Of a DNA stretch of 64,000 nucleotides, positions 1,612 to 59,288 are shown in pieces. A program made the position numbers and the translations under genes. The stretch covers positions 1-64,000 of the forward strand of contig QHSX01000045.1 of assembly GCA_003221695.1 (NCBI GenBank). The letters run 5' to 3'. The notes under the pieces were generated by a model, which was not told where the DNA came from, did not search any database, and was given only the letters and a program-made list of their open reading frames with translations. The stretch is from Candidatus Rokuibacteriota bacterium (GTDB lineage: Bacteria > Methylomirabilota > Methylomirabilia > Rokubacteriales > CSP1-6). Each line of letters begins with the position of its first letter. Position 1 is the first letter of the stretch.

Positions 1612-3588
1612 GTGCTGGCACTCGGCCTCGCCGTCCGCTGGACGCACCTGGCCTGCTCGCTCCTCCTCGTCGGCGCCACGACGCTCATCGTGCTGGCCGG
1701 CCGCTCGGATCGCGCGACGGCGATTCACTGGGAAGAGCGCCTGCTCGCCCGGGCGCGCGCCCTCGCGCTCGCGGCGCTCGCCTCCGGGCTTGCCCAGGTC
1801 GCTCTCCAGACGGCGCTCCTCGAAGGGCGCACGGCGGCCGCGCTCGAGCCATCCGCGATCGCGCGGGTGCTCCTCGAGACCCAGGCCGGCCACGTCTGGC
1901 TCGTCCGCTACGGTGTCCTCGTGCTGCTCGCGACGTTTCTCGCCCTGCGCCTCAACGTGGAGCGGCGCGCGGACTGGCGAGCGGCGCGAGGCGAGGCGGC
2001 GCTGCTCGGCGCTGCCGCCCTCGTGCCCATCGCGGCCTCGGGCCACGCCGCCGCCGTGGAGCCGTCCGCCGCGCTCGCGACCGCCGCGGACGGCGTCCAC
2101 CTGCTCGCCGCGGGGGTGTGGGCGGGCGGACTCCTGCCGCTCGCCCTTCTACTCCGCGCGGCCGGGCGCGAGGAGGGCGCCGACGCGCGTCCCTACGCCG
2201 TCGTCGCGGCGCGCCGCTTCTCCCGCTGCGCGCTCGTTCTCGTGATCACGCTCGCCCTCTCGGGCACGGGGATGGCGGTGACCAACGTCGGCACCGTCGC
2301 CGGGCTCGTCGGGACCTCATACGGCCGCCTCCTCCTGGCGAAGGTCGTCCTGCTCGTCCCGATCCTGGCTCTGGCGGCCGTCAATCGTTCCGTTCATCTT
2401 CCGCGCCTCTCCGGCGACGGCGCCACCGTCGGCCGTCCGGCGATGCGGCGGCTCGCGCGCTTCGTGCTCGTGGAGGGCGCCCTCGCGCTCGCGATCCTCG
2501 CCGTCGTCGGCGCCATGACCGTCACGCCGCCCGCGCGCCACGAGCCCCCCGTGTGGCCGTTCGCCTTCCGCCTCTCGCCCGTGACGCTCGAGGGCGCGCC
2601 GAGCGCGGCCCTGCGGGCCCTCGCCGGGAGCCAGGTCGCGGTGCTCGGCCTGGTCGGGATGGCCACCGCGTTCCTCGTCCGCGCGTGGCGGCTCCGGCTC
2701 CTCGTCGGGGGGATCGTCCTCCTCGCCGCGGGCGCCGGGCTTGCGCTGCCGCCGCTCGCCATCGACGCCTACCCGACGACCTACCTCCGCCCGGCCGTGC
2801 CGTACCAGGCGGCGTCGATCGCGACGGGCGCGGCTCTGTACCGGACGAACTGCGTCGTCTGCCACGGGACGACGGGGGCCGGCGACGGCCCGGGCGGCGC
2901 CCGTCTCCCCCGGCGTCCGGCCGACCTCCGCGCGTCCCACACGGCGCAGCACACGGCGGGCGACCTCTTCTGGTGGATCAGCCACGGCATCCCGCGCGCC
3001 GAGATGCCCGCGTTCGGCGACCGCCTGAGCGAGGAGGAGCGGTGGGACCTCGTGAACTTCCTCCGCGCGCTGTCCTCTGCGTACGCGGCACGCACCCTGG
3101 GGCCGAGCGTCGAGCCCGAGCGCTCGTGGCTCATCGCGCCCGACTTCACGTTCGCCGTCGGCCCGACGCCGGCGCGCGCGCTCAAGGAGTATCGCGGACG
3201 ACGGATCGTGCTGCTCGTCCTCTACTCGCTGCCCGGTTCGCGCCCGCGGCTCGCCCAGCTCGCGGAGCGCTACGACATTCTCGTCACGCTGGGGGCCGAG
3301 GTCATCGTGGTACCGAACGACGCGGCGCCCGACGCCATCAAGCGGCTCGGCGCCCAGCCGCGCGTCTTCTTCCCCGTCGTCACGGACGGCGCCGCCGAGA
3401 TCGTCGCCGCGTACCGCCTCTTCGCCCGCCCGCCCCACGCCGAGCTCTTGATCGACCGCCAGGGCTACGTCCGCGCGATCAGCCACGGGGGCGGCGCGGC
3501 CACCGAGCTGAACACGCTGCTCGCCGAGATCCAGCAGCTCAACGAGGAGAAGGTGCAGGCGCCGGCGCCGGAGGAGCACGTGCACTGA
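1612..3588 (+). CDS. CopD-domain membrane protein fused to cytochrome c and a redoxin-like domain
   Basis: About 658 residues from GTG 1612 (an ATG at 1537 would add 25). Residues 1-390 form many transmembrane helices with the CopD signature HLLAAGVWAGG, so this part probably moves copper across the inner membrane. A class I cytochrome c domain follows, with heme motif CVVCH near residue 413 and an axial Met candidate in AEMPAFG. The last 150 residues resemble a thioredoxin/AhpC fold (SWLIAPDFTFAVG...), but the active-site cysteines are missing (YSLPGSRPRL where WCxxC would be). It is divergent from copC and overlaps the next gene by one base (TGATG). The fusion suggests copper import coupled to a periplasmic redox step. 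Confidence 0.85.
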   Translation: MLALGLAVRWTHLACSLLLVGATTLIVLAGRSDRATAIHWEERLLARARALALAALASGLAQVALQTALLEGRTAAALEPSAIARVLLETQAGHVWLVRYGVLVLLATFLALRLNVERRADWRAARGEAALLGAAALVPIAASGHAAAVEPSAALATAADGVHLLAAGVWAGGLLPLALLLRAAGREEGADARPYAVVAARRFSRCALVLVITLALSGTGMAVTNVGTVAGLVGTSYGRLLLAKVVLLVPILALAAVNRSVHLPRLSGDGATVGRPAMRRLARFVLVEGALALAILAVVGAMTVTPPARHEPPVWPFAFRLSPVTLEGAPSAALRALAGSQVAVLGLVGMATAFLVRAWRLRLLVGGIVLLAAGAGLALPPLAIDAYPTTYLRPAVPYQAASIATGAALYRTNCVVCHGTTGAGDGPGGARLPRRPADLRASHTAQHTAGDLFWWISHGIPRAEMPAFGDRLSEEERWDLVNFLRALSSAYAARTLGPSVEPERSWLIAPDFTFAVGPTPARALKEYRGRRIVLLVLYSLPGSRPRLAQLAERYDILVTLGAEVIVVPNDAAPDAIKRLGAQPRVFFPVVTDGAAEIVAAYRLFARPPHAELLIDRQGYVRAISHGGGAATELNTLLAEIQQLNEEKVQAPAPEEHVH

Positions 3589-47393: not shown

Positions 47394-49136
47394 TTAACCC
47401 TTCTGGACCTCGAGTCCGTCCGGCGTCACGACCACGGCCGCCTGGCCCGCCTGCCGCATTGCATGAGGCAGCCGCAGCTGGTCGAGGACCCCCCGGATCT
47501 CCGAGTCATGATGCGCGTCGAAGAACTCGAACGCGACCAGCGCCGAATGGCAGACCTTACCCTGGGCGTCCTGCACCTGGAGGACCTGCGCGTTCTGCTG
47601 GTAGTCGAAGAAGTCGTAGATCGTGCACATCGGGAACTCGTGATGCAGGTAGTCGCGCACCGCGGCGATCTTCGCGTCTTGGTCGTTGAGGCGGGGCTTC
47701 TCGGGGAACCTCCCGATCTGCGCCTCGTCGAGTGCGGGCTTGTCGAGAAACTTCCCGATCCGCGCCTCCTCGAGTGCGGGCTTATCGAGAAACTTCCCGA
47801 TCCGCGCGTCATCAAGCGCGGGCTTGTCGAGAAACTTCCCGATCCGCGCCTCCTCGAGTGCGGGCTTCTCGAGGACCTTCCCGATCCGCGCGTCATCAAG
47901 CGCGGGCTTGTCGAGAAACTTCCCGATCCGCGCGTCCTCGAGTGCGGGCTTCTCGAGGACCTTCGCGATCTGCGCCTGGTCGAGTGCGGGCTTCTCGAGG
48001 ACCTTCCCGATCTGCGCCTCGTCGAGCGGGGTCTTCTCAAAGAACTTCCGCCACTGGGGCACCAACTCGCCGTTCGGTGGGAGCTTGACGACGTCGAGCA
48101 AGGCGCGCTGCATGGCGTCGTCGTATCGCCCCGCCCCTCCGTTGCGAGAGGGCCTGGCGTGCGCGCTCGCGGGCTCCTTCTCGGATCCGGCCGTCAGGCT
48201 CGCCGGCTTCGCGGGCGCGGGGACCTCCTCGACCAGACGAGTGTCGAACGTGCCGGCCAGCTTCTCGAGGAGCTTCCGCCACGCGGGGGTCAGCTCGTGA
48301 TCGTCGCCCAGGTCGCCGTCGTGTGCCGCCGTCGGTTGGGACACGACCTCTCGGGGAGGGTGCGTCACCGTCGGGTCCTCGGCGATCGGCATGATCGACG
48401 CCGCGATGGACTCCTGGGACTCGGCCCGCCCTGGCGCGCGCTCGGGTGGAGGCGTCGCCCCCGGCGACGTCAGGAGGCCGAACCACCGGGACTGCGGCGT
48501 GTGCTCGGCGGGCGCGTGCTCCACGCGCCGGGCCGCGGTCTCTGCGTGCTCGACCGCCCTGTGCTCCGCGTGCTCGGCGGCCGGATCCGGCGCCGAGGGC
48601 GGGACATGGCGGCGGAAGACATCGAGATGCCCGGGTGCGACGGGGGGAGGCGCCGACGGCACGGCTCGAGCAGGCTCGCTCGCCGTCCAGTCGACGGGGT
48701 CGAGATAGAACCCGGTGGCGTTATTGACCTCGACGCACCGATATTCGAAGCAGTTCACGGCCGGGAAGGCGAGCAGCCGGATCTTTCTGAGGAACGATTC
48801 GGGCAGCCGCTCGGCGATGAACACGACGCGCGGCGGCCAGCCGTGAGCGCCATCCCCCGCCGGCATCAGACGCCGGACGGACTCCGGATACTCGAGTGTC
48901 CACGCGTAGGCCTCGACCATCCTGAAGAGCGTCGCGTCGTCGCCTGTGAAGCTGAGCGCGATGAGGGCCGGCGTGTTGTGGCGATCCAGGCCGACGAGCT
49001 CGACCGTCGAGCGGCCGAAGTTGGCGGTGGTGGAGAGGACGCGGAATCCAGCCTCCACTGCCTCAGCGTTCTCAGCAACGAGCTCCTGCAGCTGGGACAG
49101 GTCCTTGACTTCGTGCTTTCTGAATGTCAGCTTCAT
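47394..49136 (-). CDS. Unrecognised repeat protein (eight 14-residue repeats)
   Basis: 580 residues. Residues 1-150 form an alpha/beta domain (VLSTTANFGRSTVELVGLDR, ALIALSFTGDDATLFRMVEA, RVVFIAERLPESFLRKIRLL) whose strand order recalls a PD-(D/E)XK nuclease-like fold, but the catalytic E-x-K is not visible (ALSF instead). A low-complexity Pro/Ala/Glu/His linker spans about 150-330. Residues 367-478 are eight repeats of consensus [ED]KPAL[DE][DE]A[RQ]IGK[FV]L, then a degenerate ninth. A final globular part (VRDYLHHEFPMCTIYDFFDY) ends the protein. No signal peptide. Function unknown; the repeats would form an amphipathic rod or solenoid. Confidence 0.75.
   Translation of the reverse strand: MKLTFRKHEVKDLSQLQELVAENAEAVEAGFRVLSTTANFGRSTVELVGLDRHNTPALIALSFTGDDATLFRMVEAYAWTLEYPESVRRLMPAGDGAHGWPPRVVFIAERLPESFLRKIRLLAFPAVNCFEYRCVEVNNATGFYLDPVDWTASEPARAVPSAPPPVAPGHLDVFRRHVPPSAPDPAAEHAEHRAVEHAETAARRVEHAPAEHTPQSRWFGLLTSPGATPPPERAPGRAESQESIAASIMPIAEDPTVTHPPREVVSQPTAAHDGDLGDDHELTPAWRKLLEKLAGTFDTRLVEEVPAPAKPASLTAGSEKEPASAHARPSRNGGAGRYDDAMQRALLDVVKLPPNGELVPQWRKFFEKTPLDEAQIGKVLEKPALDQAQIAKVLEKPALEDARIGKFLDKPALDDARIGKVLEKPALEEARIGKFLDKPALDDARIGKFLDKPALEEARIGKFLDKPALDEAQIGRFPEKPRLNDQDAKIAAVRDYLHHEFPMCTIYDFFDYQQNAQVLQVQDAQGKVCHSALVAFEFFDAHHDSEIRGVLDQLRLPHAMRQAGQAAVVVTPDGLEVQKG
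47703..48038 (-). repeat. Eight 42-bp coding tandem repeats
   Basis: Period 42 bp, in frame, inside the repeat-protein gene. Each unit contains a variant of AAGCCCGCACTCGA on the minus strand. Neighbouring units are nearly identical, alternating two subtypes (ARIGKFLD and ARIGKVLE), which suggests recent unequal duplication. Confidence 0.85.
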
Positions 49137-49402: not shown

Positions 49403-50557
49403 ATGACTTCCGACTCGAGGACGGTGGCACCCGGATTGCTCCAGATTCAGGACGGCAGCGTCCGAGCTCCAGGGTCGGCGCTGCGAACAATGGCCACTGA
49501 GACCATGTCGCTTGCGATTAATCTCACCGAGGCGTTCCGCGACCTCGTGCAGATCGGCATTGCCCTCACGAGCGAGCGGGACCTCTCGACGCTGCTGCAC
49601 CGGATCCTGACCGAGGCGCGTCGCTTCACGCGCGCGGAGGCGGGCACGCTCTTCCTGCGCGAGAACGACGAGCTCCATTTCGCCGTCGTCCAGAACGAGC
49701 GGCTCGCTCGCCGACTCGGCGAGGCGGAGATGCAGCGCCTGTTGCAGTCCGAGCCTCTCAAGCTCTCCGAGTTGAGCTTGGCCGGCCACGTGGCCCTGAT
49801 GGGCGAGATCGTCAACATTCCCGACACCTACACGATCCCGTCGGACCGGCCCTACAGCTTCGATCCCCTCTTCGACGCCCGGTACGACTACAAGACCCGG
49901 TCGGCCCTCGTGGTGCCGCTGCAGGACCCCGCCGGGAACATCTTCGGCGTCCTCGAGCTCATCAACGCCCTCGACGAGAGCGAACGCGTCGTGCCGTTCG
50001 ACCCCGAGTACGAGGGCCTCGTGCGCTCGCTCGCCTCACAAGCCGCCGTCGCGATCCGGAACGCCCGGCTCGAGGACCTCTCGTTCAAGGACGCGCTCAC
50101 GGACGTCTACAACCGGCGCTACTTCATCGTGCGCATGGAAGAGGAGTCCCGCAGGCACCTGCGGTTCGCCGAGCCGGTGTCGCTCGTCCTGCTGGACCTC
50201 GACCGCTTCAAGGACGTGAACGACCGGTTCGGGCACCGCGCGGGCGACGAGGCATTGCGCGAGGTCGCCCAGATCCTGCTCAAGCACTCACGGAACTTCA
50301 CGGTCGTCACCCGGTACGGGGGGGACGAGTTCGCCGTGCTCCTCGTCAACACCCCCAAGCGGGGCGCCGTCGCGTACGCGGAGCGGATCCGCGAGGTCAT
50401 CGCGCAGCACGTCTTCACCTACGGCACGGTCACGGTCAGTCTCGGCGTCGCGAGCCTCCCGGAGGACGCGGCGAGCGGCGACGACCTCGTCGTCGCGGCG
50501 GACAAGGCGATGTACGAGGCGAAGCGCTTGGGCCGGAATCGCGTCGTCGTGGTGTAG
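49403..50557 (+). CDS. GAF-GGDEF diguanylate cyclase, paralogue 1
   Basis: 384 residues from ATG 49403; by comparison with its paralogues the native start may be ATG 49490 or 49505 (MSLAINLTEAF). GAF domain about 45-205, GGDEF domain about 220-384 with DLDRFKDVNDRFGHRAGDEA and the intact active site RYGGDEF near 305. No RxxD inhibitory site precedes it. It should make cyclic-di-GMP in response to a ligand of the GAF domain. First of three tandem copies. The 265 bp upstream shows no gene or clear promoter. Confidence 0.9.
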   Translation: MTSDSRTVAPGLLQIQDGSVRAPGSALRTMATETMSLAINLTEAFRDLVQIGIALTSERDLSTLLHRILTEARRFTRAEAGTLFLRENDELHFAVVQNERLARRLGEAEMQRLLQSEPLKLSELSLAGHVALMGEIVNIPDTYTIPSDRPYSFDPLFDARYDYKTRSALVVPLQDPAGNIFGVLELINALDESERVVPFDPEYEGLVRSLASQAAVAIRNARLEDLSFKDALTDVYNRRYFIVRMEEESRRHLRFAEPVSLVLLDLDRFKDVNDRFGHRAGDEALREVAQILLKHSRNFTVVTRYGGDEFAVLLVNTPKRGAVAYAERIREVIAQHVFTYGTVTVSLGVASLPEDAASGDDLVVAADKAMYEAKRLGRNRVVVV

Positions 50558-50583
50558 GCGCCCTGGAACGTCGGGAGGGCACG

Positions 50584-51639
50584 CTGGCGGAACCCCCAGC
50601 CATCAATCTCACTCAGGCCTTCAAGGAGCTGGTGCAGATCGGGATCACGCTGACCAGCGAGCGCGACCTGAGCGTCCTGCTGGAGCGGATCCTGACCGAG
50701 GCACGACGCTTCACGCGCGCCGAGGCCGGCACGCTGTTCCTCCGCGAGGGTGACCAGCTCCGCTTCGCCGTGGTCCAGAACGACCGGCTGGCGGGAAAGC
50801 TCGGCACCGAGGAGATGAAGCGCCAGTTCGAGGAGCAACCCCTCAACCTCCGCGAGATGAGCCTCGCCGGGCACGTCGCCGTCACGGGCGACATCCTGAA
50901 CCTCTACGACCCTTACGCGATCCCGTCCGACCGGCCGTACAGCTTTGACGGACGGGTGGACGCGCGCATGAACTATCGGACCGAGTCCATTCTGGTCGCG
51001 CCGCTCCAGGGCCCCTCGGGTAACGTCCTCGGCGTGCTCGAGCTGATCAACGCGATGGACGACGGTCGAGTCCTCCCCTTTGACCCCCAGTACGAGCCGC
51101 TCGTGCGCGCCCTCGCCGCGCAGGCTGCGGTCGCGATCCGGAACGCCCGGCTCGAGGACCTGTCGCTCAAGGACGCGCTGACGGACGTGTACAACCGTCG
51201 GTACTTCATGATTCGCCTGGAGGAGGAGTTCAAGCGCCACGCGCGGTTCGGTGAGCCGCTGTCGCTGGTCATGCTCGACGTCGACCACTTCAAGGAGGTC
51301 AACGACCGCTTCGGCCACCGGGCGGGCGACGAGGTGCTCCGCGGGATCGCGGGGCTCCTCCTGAAGCACTCGCGGAGCTTCAGCGTGGTCACCCGGTACG
51401 GAGGCGACGAGTTCGCCATGGTCCTCGTCAACACCCCCAAGGACGGTGCCTTGACCTACGCCGAGCGGATCCGGTCCGTCGTGGCGGAGTACGAGTTCCG
51501 CCACGGCACCGTCACCGTGAGCCTGGGCGCGGCCTCCCTGCCGGAGGACGGCGCCTGCGGCGACGACCTCGTCGTGGCCGCCGACAAGGCGCTCTACGAT
51601 GCAAAGCGGCTGGGGCGGAACCGAGTCGCGCCACTCTGA
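50584..51639 (+). CDS. GAF-GGDEF diguanylate cyclase, paralogue 2 (possible CTG start)
   Basis: 351 residues if translation begins at CTG 50584, which follows SD GGGAGGG by 4 nt and gives LAEPPAINLTQAFKELVQIG, aligning with the start of paralogue 1. The first ordinary start, GTG 50632, would delete a conserved N-terminal helix; AAGGAG precedes it. GAF about 18-170, GGDEF with MLDVDHFKEVNDRFGHRAGD and intact RYGGDEF near 272. Active cyclic-di-GMP synthase expected. 26 nt after paralogue 1 and 8 nt before paralogue 3. Confidence 0.88.
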   Translation: MAEPPAINLTQAFKELVQIGITLTSERDLSVLLERILTEARRFTRAEAGTLFLREGDQLRFAVVQNDRLAGKLGTEEMKRQFEEQPLNLREMSLAGHVAVTGDILNLYDPYAIPSDRPYSFDGRVDARMNYRTESILVAPLQGPSGNVLGVLELINAMDDGRVLPFDPQYEPLVRALAAQAAVAIRNARLEDLSLKDALTDVYNRRYFMIRLEEEFKRHARFGEPLSLVMLDVDHFKEVNDRFGHRAGDEVLRGIAGLLLKHSRSFSVVTRYGGDEFAMVLVNTPKDGALTYAERIRSVVAEYEFRHGTVTVSLGAASLPEDGACGDDLVVAADKALYDAKRLGRNRVAPL

Positions 51640-51647
51640 GCGGGGTC

Positions 51648-52691
51648 ATGGCTGACCAGACACGGCTCCTTGACGAGCTCCTCGAGATCGGGATCGCCCT
51701 CACGAGCGAGCGGGATCTCGGGGCGCTCCTCGAACGCATCCTCTCGCAGGCCCGACGCTTCACGCGCGCCGAGGCCGGCACGGTGTTCCTGCGCGAGGGC
51801 GACCACCTCCGCTTCGCGGTGGTCCAGAACGACTTCCTCGAGGCGCGGCTGGGCAAGCGCGAGATGGAACGGCGGTTCCAAGCCGAGCCGATGCCACTCG
51901 CCGAGCCGAGCCTGGCGGGACACGTCGCCCAGACCGGAGAGACCGTCAACGTGAGCGACGCGTACGCGATCGTCGGGCAGCGGACCGTGGCGTTCAACAA
52001 AGCCGTCGACGAGACGACCGCCTACGCGACCCGCTCCGTCTTCGTCGTGCCGCTCCAGGACATCAACGGCAACATCGTGGGCGTGCTCGAGCTCCTCAAC
52101 GCGCTCGGCGATGACGGCTCGATCGTCGCGTTCGACCCGGGGTGCGAGAAGCTGATCCGCGCCCTCGCCTCCCAGGCCGCCCTCGCGATCCGCAGCGCGC
52201 GGCTCGAGGACCTGTCGTTCAAGGACCCGCTGACCGACCTCTTCAACCGGCGCTACTTCACGCTCCGACTCGACGAGGAGGCGAAGCGCGCCACGCGCTT
52301 TGGCCATCCCCTCTCGCTCGTCTACATCGACCTCGACGACTTCAAGAAGCTGAACGAGGACAAGGGGCGGGCGGCGGGCGACGAGGTGCTCAGGGAGGTG
52401 GCGCGGCTCCTGGTGAAGCACTCGCGCAGCTTCACGATCGTGGCGCGCCGGGAAGGCGACGACTTCGGGGTGATCCTCGCGAACACGCCGAAGGCCGGCG
52501 CGATGAGCTATGCCGAGCGCATCCGTGGCGTCCTCGAGCAGCACCCGTTCCCGCAAGGCCCGGTCACGGCGAGCCTCGGCGTGGCGGCCTTCCCCGCCGA
52601 CGCGGCTACCGCCGATGACTTGATGGTGCGGGTCGAGCAGGTGCTCGGCGAGGCGAAGGCGCGGGGCAAGAACCGCGTCGCGCAGCGCTGA
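51648..52691 (+). CDS. GAF-GGDEF protein, paralogue 3 with degenerate active site
   Basis: 347 residues. Same GAF-GGDEF build, but the signature reads REGDDF instead of GGDEF near 268, and the metal-binding helix reads YIDLDDFKKLNEDKGRAAGD, losing the Asn-Asp and the Phe-Gly-His of its sisters. Cyclase activity is therefore doubtful. It may bind GTP or regulate the other two as a hetero-oligomer. It ends 22 nt before the next gene. Confidence 0.87.
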   Translation: MADQTRLLDELLEIGIALTSERDLGALLERILSQARRFTRAEAGTVFLREGDHLRFAVVQNDFLEARLGKREMERRFQAEPMPLAEPSLAGHVAQTGETVNVSDAYAIVGQRTVAFNKAVDETTAYATRSVFVVPLQDINGNIVGVLELLNALGDDGSIVAFDPGCEKLIRALASQAALAIRSARLEDLSFKDPLTDLFNRRYFTLRLDEEAKRATRFGHPLSLVYIDLDDFKKLNEDKGRAAGDEVLREVARLLVKHSRSFTIVARREGDDFGVILANTPKAGAMSYAERIRGVLEQHPFPQGPVTASLGVAAFPADAATADDLMVRVEQVLGEAKARGKNRVAQR

Positions 52692-52713: not shown

Positions 52714-53397
52714 ATGACCGCGCCGAGTCCGTTCCGGAAGGAGCTCGAGGCCGCCGTCAACGCCCGGCACAGCCGGCTGAACCCGTTCACCGAGAAGTGG
52801 GTGAAGGGCGAGCTGTCGCGTGCCCAGCTGGGCGCGTGGGCGGCGCAGCACTACCAGTACGTGTCGCAGTTCCCGCGATGGTGCGCGACCGTGTACGGCG
52901 AGTGCCCGGACCCGGACGCGCGCGACTTCCTGCTCGAGAACATCATCGAGGAGGAGTCGGGGACCAAGCACGTGGACCTCCTCATCCGCTTCGCCGAAGC
53001 GTGCGGCGTGAGCCGCGCGGAGGTCGAGACGGCGCGGCAGCTGCCGACCACCCGCGGGCTCACCGCCTGGTGCTACGAGATGTCCCACCGGCCGTTCCAC
53101 ATCGCCGCGGCGGGGCTCCTGGTCGGCCTCGAGTCGCAGGTGCCGGGCATCTATAAGCGCAACCTGCCGCCGCTCAAGACGCACTACGGCTTCACCGACC
53201 ACGAGGTCGAGTTCTTCGCGATCCACATCGAGGCCGACGAGGTGCACGGCGAGCGCGGCTACGCGATCGTCGAGCATCACTCGACGACCCCCGAGAAGAA
53301 GGTCGAGGCGATCGAGGCCGTGCGTCAGGCGACCGAGATGCGCTGGCAGTACATGACCGGGCTCCACCGCGCCTTCGTCCTGAAGGAGGAGCTGTAG
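52714..53397 (+). CDS. TenA/CADD-like heme-oxygenase-fold protein, candidate diiron oxidase
   Basis: 227 residues, all helical. Ligand set expected for heme-oxygenase-like diiron oxidases is in place: Glu79 and His86 (EEESGTKH), Glu140 (GLESQ), His171, Asp175 and His178 (IHIEADEVHGE), with the same spacings as chlamydial CADD as I recall it. TenA's catalytic Cys is not evident, so thiaminase function is unlikely. CADD's self-sacrificed Tyr position seems to be Phe25, so p-aminobenzoate synthesis is also doubtful. The Rieske gene 49 nt downstream could supply electrons. Substrate unknown. Confidence 0.82.
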   Translation: MTAPSPFRKELEAAVNARHSRLNPFTEKWVKGELSRAQLGAWAAQHYQYVSQFPRWCATVYGECPDPDARDFLLENIIEEESGTKHVDLLIRFAEACGVSRAEVETARQLPTTRGLTAWCYEMSHRPFHIAAAGLLVGLESQVPGIYKRNLPPLKTHYGFTDHEVEFFAIHIEADEVHGERGYAIVEHHSTTPEKKVEAIEAVRQATEMRWQYMTGLHRAFVLKEEL

Positions 53398-53446
53398 TGC
53401 ATGTGGTCGTGCGAGCCGCAGGCCGTCCGACGGCCGAGGCGAGTCT

Positions 53447-53755
53447 GTGAGCCTGATTCGCGTGGCCGGCCTGGCGGACCTCCCGGCGGGCCAGCTCAAG
53501 CTCGTGGAGGCGGGCGGCACGCGCGTCGTCCTGGTCCGCGTCGACGACGCGGTCTACGCGTGCGACGACGTCTGCGCCCACCAGGGCGGCCCGCTGAGCA
53601 AGGGCAAGCTCTCTGGCGCACGTCTCGCCTGCCCGTGGCACGGATGGATGTACGACGTGCGCACGGGCGAGTGCGTGCTGCCCCGGCGCGGCCACCGCGT
53701 GGCGAGCTATCCGGTCCGGATCGACGCGGGCGAGGTCTGGGTGGAGGTCCCCTGA
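53447..53755 (+). CDS. Rieske [2Fe-2S] ferredoxin-like protein
   Basis: 102 residues from GTG 53447. Cluster ligands CAHQGG near 43 and CPWHGWMYDVRTG near 63 give the Cys-x-His...Cys-x2-His set. The small soluble size matches ferredoxins of ring-hydroxylating or nitrite-reductase-like systems rather than a full oxygenase. Two nt before the GlcG-like gene, so probably co-expressed with it and with the metal-oxidase candidate. Confidence 0.88.
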   Translation: MSLIRVAGLADLPAGQLKLVEAGGTRVVLVRVDDAVYACDDVCAHQGGPLSKGKLSGARLACPWHGWMYDVRTGECVLPRRGHRVASYPVRIDAGEVWVEVP

Positions 53756-53757
53756 GG

Positions 53758-54183
53758 ATGGCGCTCACGCAGAAGCAAGCCCACGAGTGCATCCAGCGCG
53801 GATTCGCCGAGGCGCAGGCCCTCGGCTTCAGGGTCGCCATCGCCGTCGTGGACGACGCCGGTCACCTCGTCGCCTGCGAGCGCATGGACGGCGCCCTCTG
53901 GGTCACGCCCGAGATCGCGCGGGCGAAGGCCAACGCCGCCGCCGCCTTCCGCGCGACGACGCTCGAGCTCGAGGAACGCTTCGCCAAGGGGCGCCAGCTG
54001 TTCGCGTCGAACGTCGCCACGCTCGGCGATTACCAGTTCGTCTTCGGCCGCGGCGCCGTGCCGCTCGTCGAGGGCGGGCAGATCGTCGGCGCCGTCGGCG
54101 TGAGCGGCGCGGTCCCCGCCGACAACGACCACACGATCGCGGACGCCGCCGCGGGGCACCCCGAGCTTCCCCGGAGCCAGTAG
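53758..54183 (+). CDS. GlcG/HbpS-type heme-binding family protein
   Basis: 141 residues, ATG 2 nt after the Rieske stop (TGAGGATG). Family stretches: AQALGFRVAIAVVDDAGHLV near 20-39, ARAKANAAAAFRATTLEL near 60, GAVPLVEGGQIVGAVGVSGA near 100. Members bind heme or corrinoids (HbpS, PduO C-terminal domain), or act as accessory proteins. No signal peptide, so cytosolic. Two hairpins follow its stop. Confidence 0.85.
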   Translation: MALTQKQAHECIQRGFAEAQALGFRVAIAVVDDAGHLVACERMDGALWVTPEIARAKANAAAAFRATTLELEERFAKGRQLFASNVATLGDYQFVFGRGAVPLVEGGQIVGAVGVSGAVPADNDHTIADAAAGHPELPRSQ

Positions 54184-56521: not shown

Positions 56522-58170
56522 CCACCGTGTCGCCGAACCCCTTCGCCCACGCCACGGCGGCCGCCATGCTCGACGCTCTCGCCACGCGCCACGGCGCGCG
56601 CGAGGCGATCCTGTGCGGCGCGCGGCGCGTCACCTTCGCCGCGTTCCGCGCGAGCGTGGACCGGCTCGCGCGCGGCCTCGCGGCGCTCGGGATCGGCCGC
56701 GGCGACACGGTGGCGATCTGGCTTCCGAACCGGCCCGAGTGGTTCTTCGCCCAGTACGCGTGCGCGCGGCTCGGCGCGGTCGTCGTCGCGCTCAACCCGC
56801 GCTACAGGTCCCACGAGCTGACGTACATCCTGGGTCAGGCGGACGTGACGGTGCTCCTCATGACGGACCACCTCGGCGGGGTCGACTACTTCGAGACGCT
56901 CCACGAGGTGGTGCCGGAGCTGCCCCGATCCGTTCCCGGAGAGCTCGACCTGCCCACGCTCCCGCGGCTCAGGCACGTGGTCGTGGACGCCGACGACCCC
57001 TATCCCGGCTGCCATCGCCTCGGGGACGTGCTCGACCTCGACGCCGACCTCCGCGCCTCGCCCCCGCCCGGACCCGACGACGTCTTCACGCTGCTCTACA
57101 CATCGGGCACGACGTCGTTTCCCAAGGGCGCCATGATCACGCATCGCAACTGTGTGCCTCACGGCTGGAACGTCGGCGAGGTGTTGCGCCTGACGGCGGA
57201 CGACCGCGTGCTCCACGCCCTCCCCGCGGCGGGGACGTGGGGCGGCGTCAACGTCCCGCTCACGACGTGGAGCCACGGCGCCTGCCTCGTCCTCATGGAC
57301 ACCTACGATCCGCTCCGCGCGCTCCAGTTGATCGAGCGCGAGCGCTGCACCGTCTGGAACGCGGTGGATACGATGGTCACGGCAATGCTCGAGCACCCGG
57401 ATCTCGACCGGTACGATCGATCCTCGCTTCGCACCGGCGGCCTCGGATCGACGGGCGGTGGCGCCCACGGCCTCTTCGAGGCGTTCGTCGAGCGGATCGG
57501 TGTGCGGTACGGCTACGAGCCCTACGGCATGACGGAGCTCAACGCGATGGCGCTGTTCCATCACCTCGACGAGCCGCCTGAGCTCCGGAAGCTCCCGGGC
57601 GTCAACCCGGCGCCCGGCCTCGAGGTCCGCGTCGTCCATCCCGAGACGGGTGCGCTCTCTCAGCCCGGCGAGGAGGGGGAATTGCAGTTCCGTGGCGAGT
57701 GCGTCACGCGCGGCTACTACAAGAACCCGGAGGCGACTGCCGCGGCCTTCACGCCCGACGGCTGGTTCCGCTCGGGCGATCTCGGCGTCCAGGACGGCCG
57801 GGGCCACACGATCTTCAAGGGCCGGCTGCGTGAGACGCTCCGGATCAGTCACTTCATGGTCGCGCCCGGCGAGATCGAGGTGTTCCTGATGTCGCACCCT
57901 GACGTGGCGCAGGCGTTCGTCGTCGGCGTCCCCGACCCCAAGCTCAACGAGGCGCCGGTCGCGTACGTGATCCTGAAGGAAGGCGCGTTCCTCACCGAGG
58001 CGGCGCTGCGCGCCTTCGCTCGTGGCAAGATCGCCTCGTACAAGATTCCCGTCGGGATCCGCTTCGTCAAGGACGTGCCGCGTACGCCCGGCCCGCACGG
58101 CGACAAGGTCCAGCGCGGCAAGCTCCGAGAGCAGGCCATCCGCGAGCTGGCGCGGGGAAGGGCGGAGTGA
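56518..58170 (+). CDS. AMP-binding acyl-CoA synthetase
   Basis: 550 residues from GTG 56518 (overlaps upstream stop, GTGA). ANL motifs: YTSGTTSFPKGAMITHRN near 192, YGYEPYGMTELNAMALFHHL near 330, WFRSGDLGVQDGRGHTIFKG near 416, and a C-terminal HGDKVQRGKLRE. The hinge reads GRLRETLRISHFMVAPGEIE, whereas most members have GRxKxxIxxxGENVxPxEIE, so the adenylation-thioesterification switch region is somewhat divergent. Likely activates an aromatic or branched carboxylate to CoA for the neighbouring CoA enzymes. Confidence 0.9.
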   Translation: MTTVSPNPFAHATAAAMLDALATRHGAREAILCGARRVTFAAFRASVDRLARGLAALGIGRGDTVAIWLPNRPEWFFAQYACARLGAVVVALNPRYRSHELTYILGQADVTVLLMTDHLGGVDYFETLHEVVPELPRSVPGELDLPTLPRLRHVVVDADDPYPGCHRLGDVLDLDADLRASPPPGPDDVFTLLYTSGTTSFPKGAMITHRNCVPHGWNVGEVLRLTADDRVLHALPAAGTWGGVNVPLTTWSHGACLVLMDTYDPLRALQLIERERCTVWNAVDTMVTAMLEHPDLDRYDRSSLRTGGLGSTGGGAHGLFEAFVERIGVRYGYEPYGMTELNAMALFHHLDEPPELRKLPGVNPAPGLEVRVVHPETGALSQPGEEGELQFRGECVTRGYYKNPEATAAAFTPDGWFRSGDLGVQDGRGHTIFKGRLRETLRISHFMVAPGEIEVFLMSHPDVAQAFVVGVPDPKLNEAPVAYVILKEGAFLTEAALRAFARGKIASYKIPVGIRFVKDVPRTPGPHGDKVQRGKLREQAIRELARGRAE

Positions 58171-59288
58171 GCATGTTCCGGACGGCGCTCTGCGAGCTGC
58201 TCGCGATCGAGTACCCGATCGTCCAGTCGGGTATGGGGGGTGTCGCCGGGCCCGAGCTCGTGGCGGAGGTGTGCCGCGCCGGCGGCCTCGGCATCCTCGC
58301 CGGGCTCAACGTCCCGCCGGACGACCTCCGGAAGATGATCCGCGGCGTGCGCGGGCTGACCGACCGCCCGTTCGGGGTGAACCTCTGGCTGCACAAGGCG
58401 CTCCGACCCCCGATCGATCCCGCCACCGTGACCGAGGAGACGCTGCGCGGCGTCCAGGCGATGCTCGATCGCTTCCGTGAGCGGCTCGGCATCCCGAAGA
58501 CGGCGACCCGCCCCGGTCGCGCGCCGGACCTCGTGGACGCGGGTGTCGCCGTCATCCTCGAGGAGCGACCGCCGGTGTTCTCGACGGCCCTCGGCGCGCT
58601 CGAGCCCCGGCTGGCCGAGGAGTGCCGCCGGCGAGGGATCAAGGTCATGGCCATGGTCTCGACCGTGGAGGACGCGCGGACCGCCGCGGCGGACGGCGCC
58701 GACGTGATCGTCGCCCAGGGAGGCGAGGCCGGCGGGCACCGCTCGGTCGATGGCAAGCCCGCGTCGCCGGAGGCGGCGACCGTGGGCCTCATGGCCCTGC
58801 TGCCCCAGGTCGTGGACGCGGTGCGTGTGCCCGTCGTGGCCGCGGGCGGCATCGCCGACGGGCGCGGTCTGGTCGCCGCCCTGGCTCTCGGCGCGAGTGG
58901 GGTCCTGCTGGGCACGCGCTTCGTGGCGACGCGCGAGTCGATGGCGTCGGAGGTCTACAAGAAGCGCGTCCTCGAGAGCGAGAGCGGTGCCACCACGGTG
59001 ACGGACGTCCTCACCGGCCTCTGGGCACGGGCGCTCGCCAACACCTTCACCCGGGAGTACACCGAGTCCGGCGCCCCGGTCCTGCCGCCGCTCGTCCAGC
59101 GGGGCGCCGCCACCGACGTCTACCTCGCCGCGCTCAAGCAGGGCGACCCGGAGTACTCTCCCATGATGGCCGGCCAGTCGGTCGGGCTCATCCGCGACCT
59201 GCCGGGCGCGGGCGAGGTCGTCGAGAGCGTCATCCGCGAGGCGCGCGCCGTGCTGGAGGCGCTCCCGCGGCGCGTCCGTCTGGCCTAG
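58167..59288 (+). CDS. Nitronate monooxygenase / 2-nitropropane dioxygenase-like FMN enzyme
   Basis: 373 residues from GTG 58167, 4-bp overlap with the AMP ligase (GTGA). TIM-barrel FMN fold: YPIVQSGMGGVAGPELVAEV near 15-34, GGLGILAGLN, NLWLHKALRPP near 73, VIVAQGGEAGGHRSVDGKP near 180 with the catalytic-type His, VVAAGGIADGRGLVAALALG near 222, GTRFVATRES near 250. The family includes nitronate monooxygenase and FabK-type enoyl reductase; reaction not settled. Confidence 0.87.
   Translation: MSMFRTALCELLAIEYPIVQSGMGGVAGPELVAEVCRAGGLGILAGLNVPPDDLRKMIRGVRGLTDRPFGVNLWLHKALRPPIDPATVTEETLRGVQAMLDRFRERLGIPKTATRPGRAPDLVDAGVAVILEERPPVFSTALGALEPRLAEECRRRGIKVMAMVSTVEDARTAAADGADVIVAQGGEAGGHRSVDGKPASPEAATVGLMALLPQVVDAVRVPVVAAGGIADGRGLVAALALGASGVLLGTRFVATRESMASEVYKKRVLESESGATTVTDVLTGLWARALANTFTREYTESGAPVLPPLVQRGAATDVYLAALKQGDPEYSPMMAGQSVGLIRDLPGAGEVVESVIREARAVLEALPRRVRLA

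Follow-up and report, generated by a model that had tools for sequence, protein, structure and literature searches.

A conserved gene cluster in Rokubacteria encoding a probable heme-oxygenase-like dimetal oxidase, a Rieske ferredoxin, and an HbpS-like protein

In the available text of PMC11363339, the characterized heme-oxygenase-like dimetal oxidases (HDOs) other than FlcD are described as requiring reduction of a diferric cofactor after turnover, and SznF, UndA, and BesC as needing a reducing agent for multiple turnovers. A 64,000-nucleotide stretch of contig QHSX01000045.1 from a Candidatus Rokuibacteriota soil bacterium (the window) raises the question of whether such an enzyme could possess its own electron donor, as a putative HDO gene in this DNA is followed immediately by genes for a small Rieske ferredoxin and a member of the HbpS/DUF336 family.

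Gene layout, predicted fold, and metal site

The HDO gene (52714-53397, plus strand) encodes a 227-residue protein matching Pfam family PF14518 (Haem_oxygenas_2; 5e-33), the Rieske gene (53447-53755, plus strand) begins with GTG and encodes a 102-residue [2Fe-2S] ferredoxin (PF00355, Rieske; 1.2e-20), and the third gene (53758-54183, plus strand) encodes a 141-residue HbpS/DUF336-like protein (PF03928, HbpS-like; 2e-33). The genes are arranged head to tail with gaps of 49 and 2 bases, and all three Pfam scores are well above cut-off, in full agreement with a sequence-only reading that had described a tight cluster of an HDO, a Rieske protein, and a GlcG/HbpS-like protein. The motif CxH-x16-CxxH is present in the window Rieske protein and in 27/27 Rieske neighbors of related HDOs. 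In size and cluster motif, this protein resembles the dioxygenase-type Rieske ferredoxins of the HcaC, AndAb, and MocE families, which are among its best NCBIfam matches (every listed cut-off was missed), but no Rieske dioxygenase was present among the neighboring genes scanned with Pfam. A scan for promoters and terminators found none. Just upstream of the HDO gene are three tandem, paralogous GAF-GGDEF genes (49403-52691, plus strand); the third (51648-52691) has REGDDF where the first two have YGGDEF, and on this sequence its cyclase site looks degenerate. Farther upstream, a 580-residue frame on the minus strand (47394-49136) contains successive repeats that resemble one another (variants of ARIGKVLEKPAL) and has no Pfam match. 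A nitronate monooxygenase-like (NMO) gene (PF03060) is located downstream of the trio at 58167-59288.

The best sequence match of the HDO in the Protein Data Bank was NePabS (9pj4; 6.6e-28), and CADD (1rcw and 8va9) was also matched. Its nearest NCBIfam family was the CADD family TIGR04305, with a score of 140.6 bits versus a cut-off of 200. The AlphaFold2 model, for which the input alignment comprised 29 sequences (the window HDO and 28 orthologs), had a mean pLDDT of 88 and a pTM of 0.86; it displayed a heme-oxygenase-like seven-helix fold and matched CADD, PqqC, UndA, TenA, and HrmI. CADD was the best Foldseek match (8va9, TM 0.84), and VIA-align superposed the model on CADD (1rcw) with a Z score of 24.5 and an rmsd of 2.1 over 211 residues, thereby bearing out the CADD/TenA-type fold that had been proposed from the sequence. 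The fold alone cannot separate these families because the TenA, PqqC, and UndA structures followed closely (Z 22.4-23.3). The CADD metal ligands, which we take to be Glu81, His88, Glu142, His174, Asp178, and His181, align with Glu80, His86, Glu140, His171, Asp175, and His178 of the window protein. All six positions, Glu80 included, are invariant among the 29 sequences of the ortholog set and in a separate group of 10 aligned sequences that includes sister HDOs, paralogs, CADD, and NePabS; thus, a 3-His/3-carboxylate ligand set is present by sequence alignment and conservation. Five of these residues are those assigned by the sequence-only reading. Its choice of Glu79 as the first ligand is probably off by one residue; the window HDO has one residue fewer before the histidine, and Glu79 aligns with CADD Asp80 and is also invariant among the 29 sequences, but the alignment favors Glu80. 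With this ligand set, the HDO may bind iron or another dimetal cofactor and activate O2, and the protein is a probable heme-oxygenase-like dimetal oxidase closest to the CADD/PabS group.

Conservation of the cluster and its counterpart in Burkholderiales

A single scan of GTDB genomes, using patterns derived from one protein, provided 32 loci, all titled Rokubacteria or Methylomirabilota, with HDOs that are 78-96% identical. The Rieske gene lies directly downstream of the HDO gene in 27 of the 31 testable loci (L031 ends inside the HDO), so HDO homologs do cluster with Rieske genes; with the ligands also aligning by sequence, neither of the two outcomes that the earlier reading had named as refuting it was obtained. 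HbpS directly follows the HDO, with no Rieske gene, in the other four (L009, L014, L021, and L032). An HbpS-like gene comes next in 30/30 testable loci and is thereby the most constant partner of the HDO; the sequence of L022 stops within the Rieske gene, and that of L018 runs out at a contig end partway through HbpS. Among 60 genomes, the Rieske type (at least 62% identity) was found as 25 copies in 24 genomes, with the other Rieske matches listed being at most 48% identical, and a comparison of coordinates revealed that all 25 copies adjoin an HDO or an HDO fragment. This Rieske type was present in 24 of 27 genomes possessing the HDO (at least 78% identity) and in 0 of 33 lacking it, although these counts and those for the loci are not independent, because the underlying genome sets overlap and share ancestry. 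The three exceptional genomes (G008, G019, and G038) encode HbpS beside the HDO and have no Rieske match in the corresponding loci (L051, L046, and L057). Given that 4/31 loci and 3/27 genomes have no Rieske gene beside the HDO, the Rieske protein is not obligatory. One of these loci (L046, 3.7 kb) has a second HbpS-like gene (2396-3190) after the first, and the start of its product appears by eye to be a signal peptide.

HbpS-like genes are rare in the window genome (4 matches in 4.6 Mb), and abundance therefore does not explain the constant HbpS neighbor; clustering of the three genes is more than chance. Grouping 31 loci by the gene families flanking the trio within 4 kb yielded seven context groups, the largest containing 20 loci, where loci were linked by any shared flanking family, the ORF caller was crude, no called ORF of L029 lay completely within 4 kb, and the single-locus groups L018 and L022 rested on short stretches. 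The trio thus persists while its neighbors change. In 15/31 loci, the gene after the HDO could begin at an in-frame start that overlaps the HDO stop codon by 4 bp. In comparisons with the window, dN was less than dS for all three genes; for L027, the dN/dS pairs were 0.157/0.551 (HDO), 0.270/0.618 (Rieske), and 0.167/0.507 (HbpS). As a control, we inspected 10 loci of HDO paralogs (L060, L061, L062, L088, L089, and L092-L096; 2.9-9.5 kb), none of which contained HbpS, and a Rieske domain was found in just one (L096), at the C-terminal end of a 435-residue frame. L096 (G007, contig C82, 1-9500) encodes two HDO paralogs along with this Rieske domain on a contig shared with a window-type HDO.

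A tblastn search of 72,556 plasmid records with the HDO returned 200 records with a match, of which six, from Cupriavidus metallidurans (two), C. campinensis, Cupriavidus sp. EM10, and Caballeronia SBC1 and SBC2, were 47-48% identical; the other plasmid matches listed were at most 28.9% identical, and the annotated ones were mostly PqqC. The same six records were recovered at E 1e-10 with a Cupriavidus HDO as the query. Outside Methylomirabilota the search covered plasmid records, and the observed spread of this HDO clade to other phyla is a lower bound. Five of the six sister loci were fetched. In Caballeronia, the HDO gene is followed by those for an aldehyde dehydrogenase (ALDH), HbpS, a BenC/MmoC-like FAD-2Fe2S reductase, an OCD/mu-crystallin protein, and an MFS transporter; divergently oriented genes encode two Fer2 ferredoxins around a 116-residue protein, an alpha/beta hydrolase, and a GntR regulator, and past these lies a porin gene. 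The unannotated Cupriavidus loci (3/3 fetched) contain, by sequence, the HDO, ALDH, HbpS, reductase, OCD, both ferredoxin, and 116-residue protein genes, with Pfam assignments made for one of the three loci and the reductase of L067 matching in two frames. Fer2 and reductase genes are thus present in 5/5 Burkholderiales loci fetched, all from one bacterial family, with the Fer2 ferredoxins in place of the Rieske protein. The 116-residue protein between the two ferredoxins (L063:7069-7419 and its Cupriavidus counterparts) occurs in both genera and has no Pfam match. Neither the BenC-like reductase nor a related ALDH was found in the Rokubacteria loci searched (11/32).

Phylogenetic analysis joined the Rokubacteria and Burkholderiales HDOs. 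In a trimmed tree of 20 rows, constructed without six paralog rows (L062, L088, L089, L093, and both of L096) and L014, the two groups formed one clade (support 97/96) and CADD and NePabS were placed apart (99/96). The support for the Rokubacteria and Burkholderiales grouping was 91/86 in a first tree of 27 rows that included the long paralogs. The Rokubacteria HDOs did not resolve as a clade of their own in the trimmed tree (p-AU 0.239).

The HbpS-like partner and alternative functions

One HbpS subtype is found in 28 of 30 Rokubacteria loci. The other two (L006:7087-7521 and L017:7034-7423) have a different subtype after the HDO-Rieske pair, which is 58-63% identical to the Burkholderiales HbpS proteins compared and 30-38% identical to the common Rokubacteria type where full-length copies of it were compared; Pfam confirmed the family of the L006 protein (1.2e-37), and the HDOs of L006 and L017 are 88 and 86% identical to that of the window. 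This replacement of HbpS by another family member suggests a need for a DUF336 protein of some kind at that position. Among solved structures, the window HbpS is best matched by EfgA (6bws; 1.4e-14) and the Caballeronia HbpS by 2a2l, which corresponds to OrfY according to the EfgA paper (PMC8153426). The available text of that paper describes EfgA, also a DUF336 protein, as a formaldehyde sensor and places DUF336 genes in aldehyde-making pathways. Equivalents of EfgA Lys57, Ser114, Asp121, and Arg42 are kept in the window HbpS, and the first three are present in 30/30, 28/28, and 28/28 Rokubacteria HbpS proteins (two gaps at each of the last two positions) and in 5/5 from Burkholderiales. The same three residues are also retained in OrfY, PduOC, NahX, and the other DUF336 proteins of the window genome; these pocket residues are conserved across DUF336 generally and so provide no indication of an aldehyde ligand. 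Orthology to EfgA is unsupported, since the window HbpS (37% identity) is about as close to it as are two other DUF336 proteins of the genome (35 and 37%; the fourth, weak match was left out of this alignment). Furthermore, the window HbpS is tied to the HDO cluster, whereas EfgA has no conserved gene context in the available text of PMC8153426.

Several other functions for the cluster were considered. Rather than handling an aldehyde, HbpS could protect a labile diiron site, either by chaperoning iron or by shielding the site from peroxide. This role would suit the most constant partner of the HDO, given that many HDOs have a labile diiron cluster (HDO review) and that Streptomyces HbpS is an iron-binding protein that guards against oxidative stress mediated by iron, but the D/EXXE motifs are poorly conserved among HbpS-like proteins (both points from the available text of PMC3754957), and we judge the proposal unlikely. 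The heme-oxygenase fold, the HbpS family name, and the ferredoxin neighbor would also fit a heme-degrading module consisting of a heme oxygenase, its ferredoxin donor, and a heme-handling HbpS. The six His/carboxylate dimetal ligands are invariant, however, and His19, presumably the candidate proximal heme ligand given its N-terminal location, is replaced by Ser in the Burkholderiales HDOs; in addition, the annotated Caballeronia clusters have a catabolic appearance, with no heme-uptake gene among those listed. With the dimetal ligands kept and His19 not conserved in the sister enzymes, a heme oxygenase is very unlikely. An N-oxygenase that works with the product of the downstream NMO-like gene was suggested by the proximity of that gene and by the occurrence of N-oxygenases among HDOs (HDO review). 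The NMO family is broad, however; tblastn matches to this gene were confined to loci of the largest context group, with none in the other six, and the Caballeronia clusters have no annotated NMO gene. We rejected this highly improbable pairing because its gene context is not conserved.

The nearest solved relatives of the HDO by sequence are para-aminobenzoate (pABA) synthases, raising the alternative that it supplies folate synthesis in a genome without PabB, as CADD and NePabS do, with other residues being sacrificed. In favor of this idea, the window HDO is the sole match to NePabS at E 1e-5 in its own genome, which contains one chorismate-binding enzyme above the TrpE cut-off and none above the PabB cut-off, the latter being so strict that only 4/14 control genomes passed it. 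Same-class genomes G039-G046 have two chorismate-binding matches each. Related genomes without an HDO ortholog (G011, G014, G016, and G017) likewise have one such enzyme, however, and the occurrence of the HDO therefore does not follow the lack of PabB. The window HDO shares its fold and ligand set with CADD (C. trachomatis CT610) and NePabS (N. europaea NE1434) at 27-32% identity, but these two differ in forming a separate clade, in having other gene partners, and in possessing the sacrificial Tyr and Lys together with several radical-path aromatic residues that the window protein does not have. The position of CADD Tyr27/NePabS Tyr25 is occupied by Thr26, and by Thr in 29/29 sequences of the ortholog set, which upholds the earlier claim that the sacrificial Tyr of CADD is missing. 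The donor Lys of the pABA synthases (CADD Lys152/NePabS Lys159) is lost as well, being replaced by Asn150 (Asn in 28/29 and Thr in one). The essential NePabS residue Tyr41 corresponds to Trp42, Tyr45 to His46, and Trp99 to Leu90; CADD Tyr141 is replaced by Leu139 and CADD Tyr170 by Phe167, the latter position also being Phe in NePabS. In the Burkholderiales sister HDOs, the two sacrificial positions are occupied by Ser and Gln. The roles of these sacrificial and essential residues in NePabS and CADD are taken from the available text of PMC11965152 and PMC13108848. These substitutions, the TIGR04305 score below cut-off, and the lack of a folate gene among the neighboring genes scanned with Pfam make a pABA synthase improbable. 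We dropped it on the basis that both sacrificial residues are absent and that the distribution of the HDO does not match that of a missing PabB; the best reading of the sequences is that the HDO is distinct from a pABA synthase of known mechanism.

Proposed function and significance

We favor, as somewhat more likely than not, a multi-component, O2-dependent HDO oxygenase with a dedicated [2Fe-2S] supply and HbpS as the third component; the core of this proposal, an oxygenase with a redox partner, is likely. The oxygenase reading is based on the predicted fold, the conserved ligands, the loss of the sacrificial pair, the conserved cluster, and the [2Fe-2S] chain of the sister cluster. The Rieske protein would supply the HDO with electrons: kept reduced by a reductase encoded outside the cluster, it would restore the diferrous form of the dimetal site, after which O2 would yield a peroxo intermediate capable of oxidizing a separate small substrate. 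The HDO would thereby turn over instead of sacrificing its own residues as in CADD. HbpS/DUF336 could be a near-obligate third component that binds a product or cofactor, and in Burkholderiales the ferredoxins and reductase may take the electron-supply role of the Rokubacteria Rieske protein.

The product of this oxygenase might be a reactive aldehyde arising from oxidative C-C or C-N cleavage. The constant HbpS, with EfgA as its best solved relative, and the dehydrogenase of the sister cluster suggest such a product. We prefer this sub-hypothesis, which is possible but less than even in our estimation, because BesC carries out C-C cleavage with formaldehyde release (available text of PMC13108848), the sister HDO has an adjacent ALDH gene, and every testable locus has a DUF336 partner. 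More speculatively, the clusters may represent a new class of three-component HDO oxygenases in which the DUF336/HbpS protein captures or senses a toxic aldehyde and the [2Fe-2S] donor is interchangeable between lineages, a proposal that we consider doubtful at present.

The closest functional precedent is provided by mangotoxin biosynthesis, where MboA needs the reductase MboB for its second oxidation and the full reaction; according to its authors, MboAB may be the first characterized dedicated HDO-redox partner pair (available text of PMC13185094). It was also the only characterized HDO-redox pair that we found in open-licence papers, and among these we found no paper on an HDO-Rieske pairing (beyond one review) or an HDO-HbpS/DUF336 pairing. 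The systems are alike in combining an HDO with a dedicated [2Fe-2S] redox partner, and the Burkholderiales sister cluster resembles MboAB further in its BenC-like FAD/2Fe-2S reductase. They differ in that MboB is a flavin reductase whereas the adjacent partner in Rokubacteria is a Rieske ferredoxin, and in that MboA belongs to a biosynthetic cluster for which the available text of PMC13185094 mentions no HbpS partner. As with MboAB, a redox gene is consistently found beside the HDO, in 27/31 Rokubacteria and 5/5 Burkholderiales loci.

Should the Rieske protein prove to be the donor of an HDO that also has a constant DUF336 partner, the cluster would reveal how HDOs are re-reduced in cells, and a function open to testing would be gained for both the HDO and the DUF336 families; the Cupriavidus and Caballeronia clusters come from named isolates. 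If the three-component class is real, the widespread and poorly explained DUF336 family would gain a partner enzyme.
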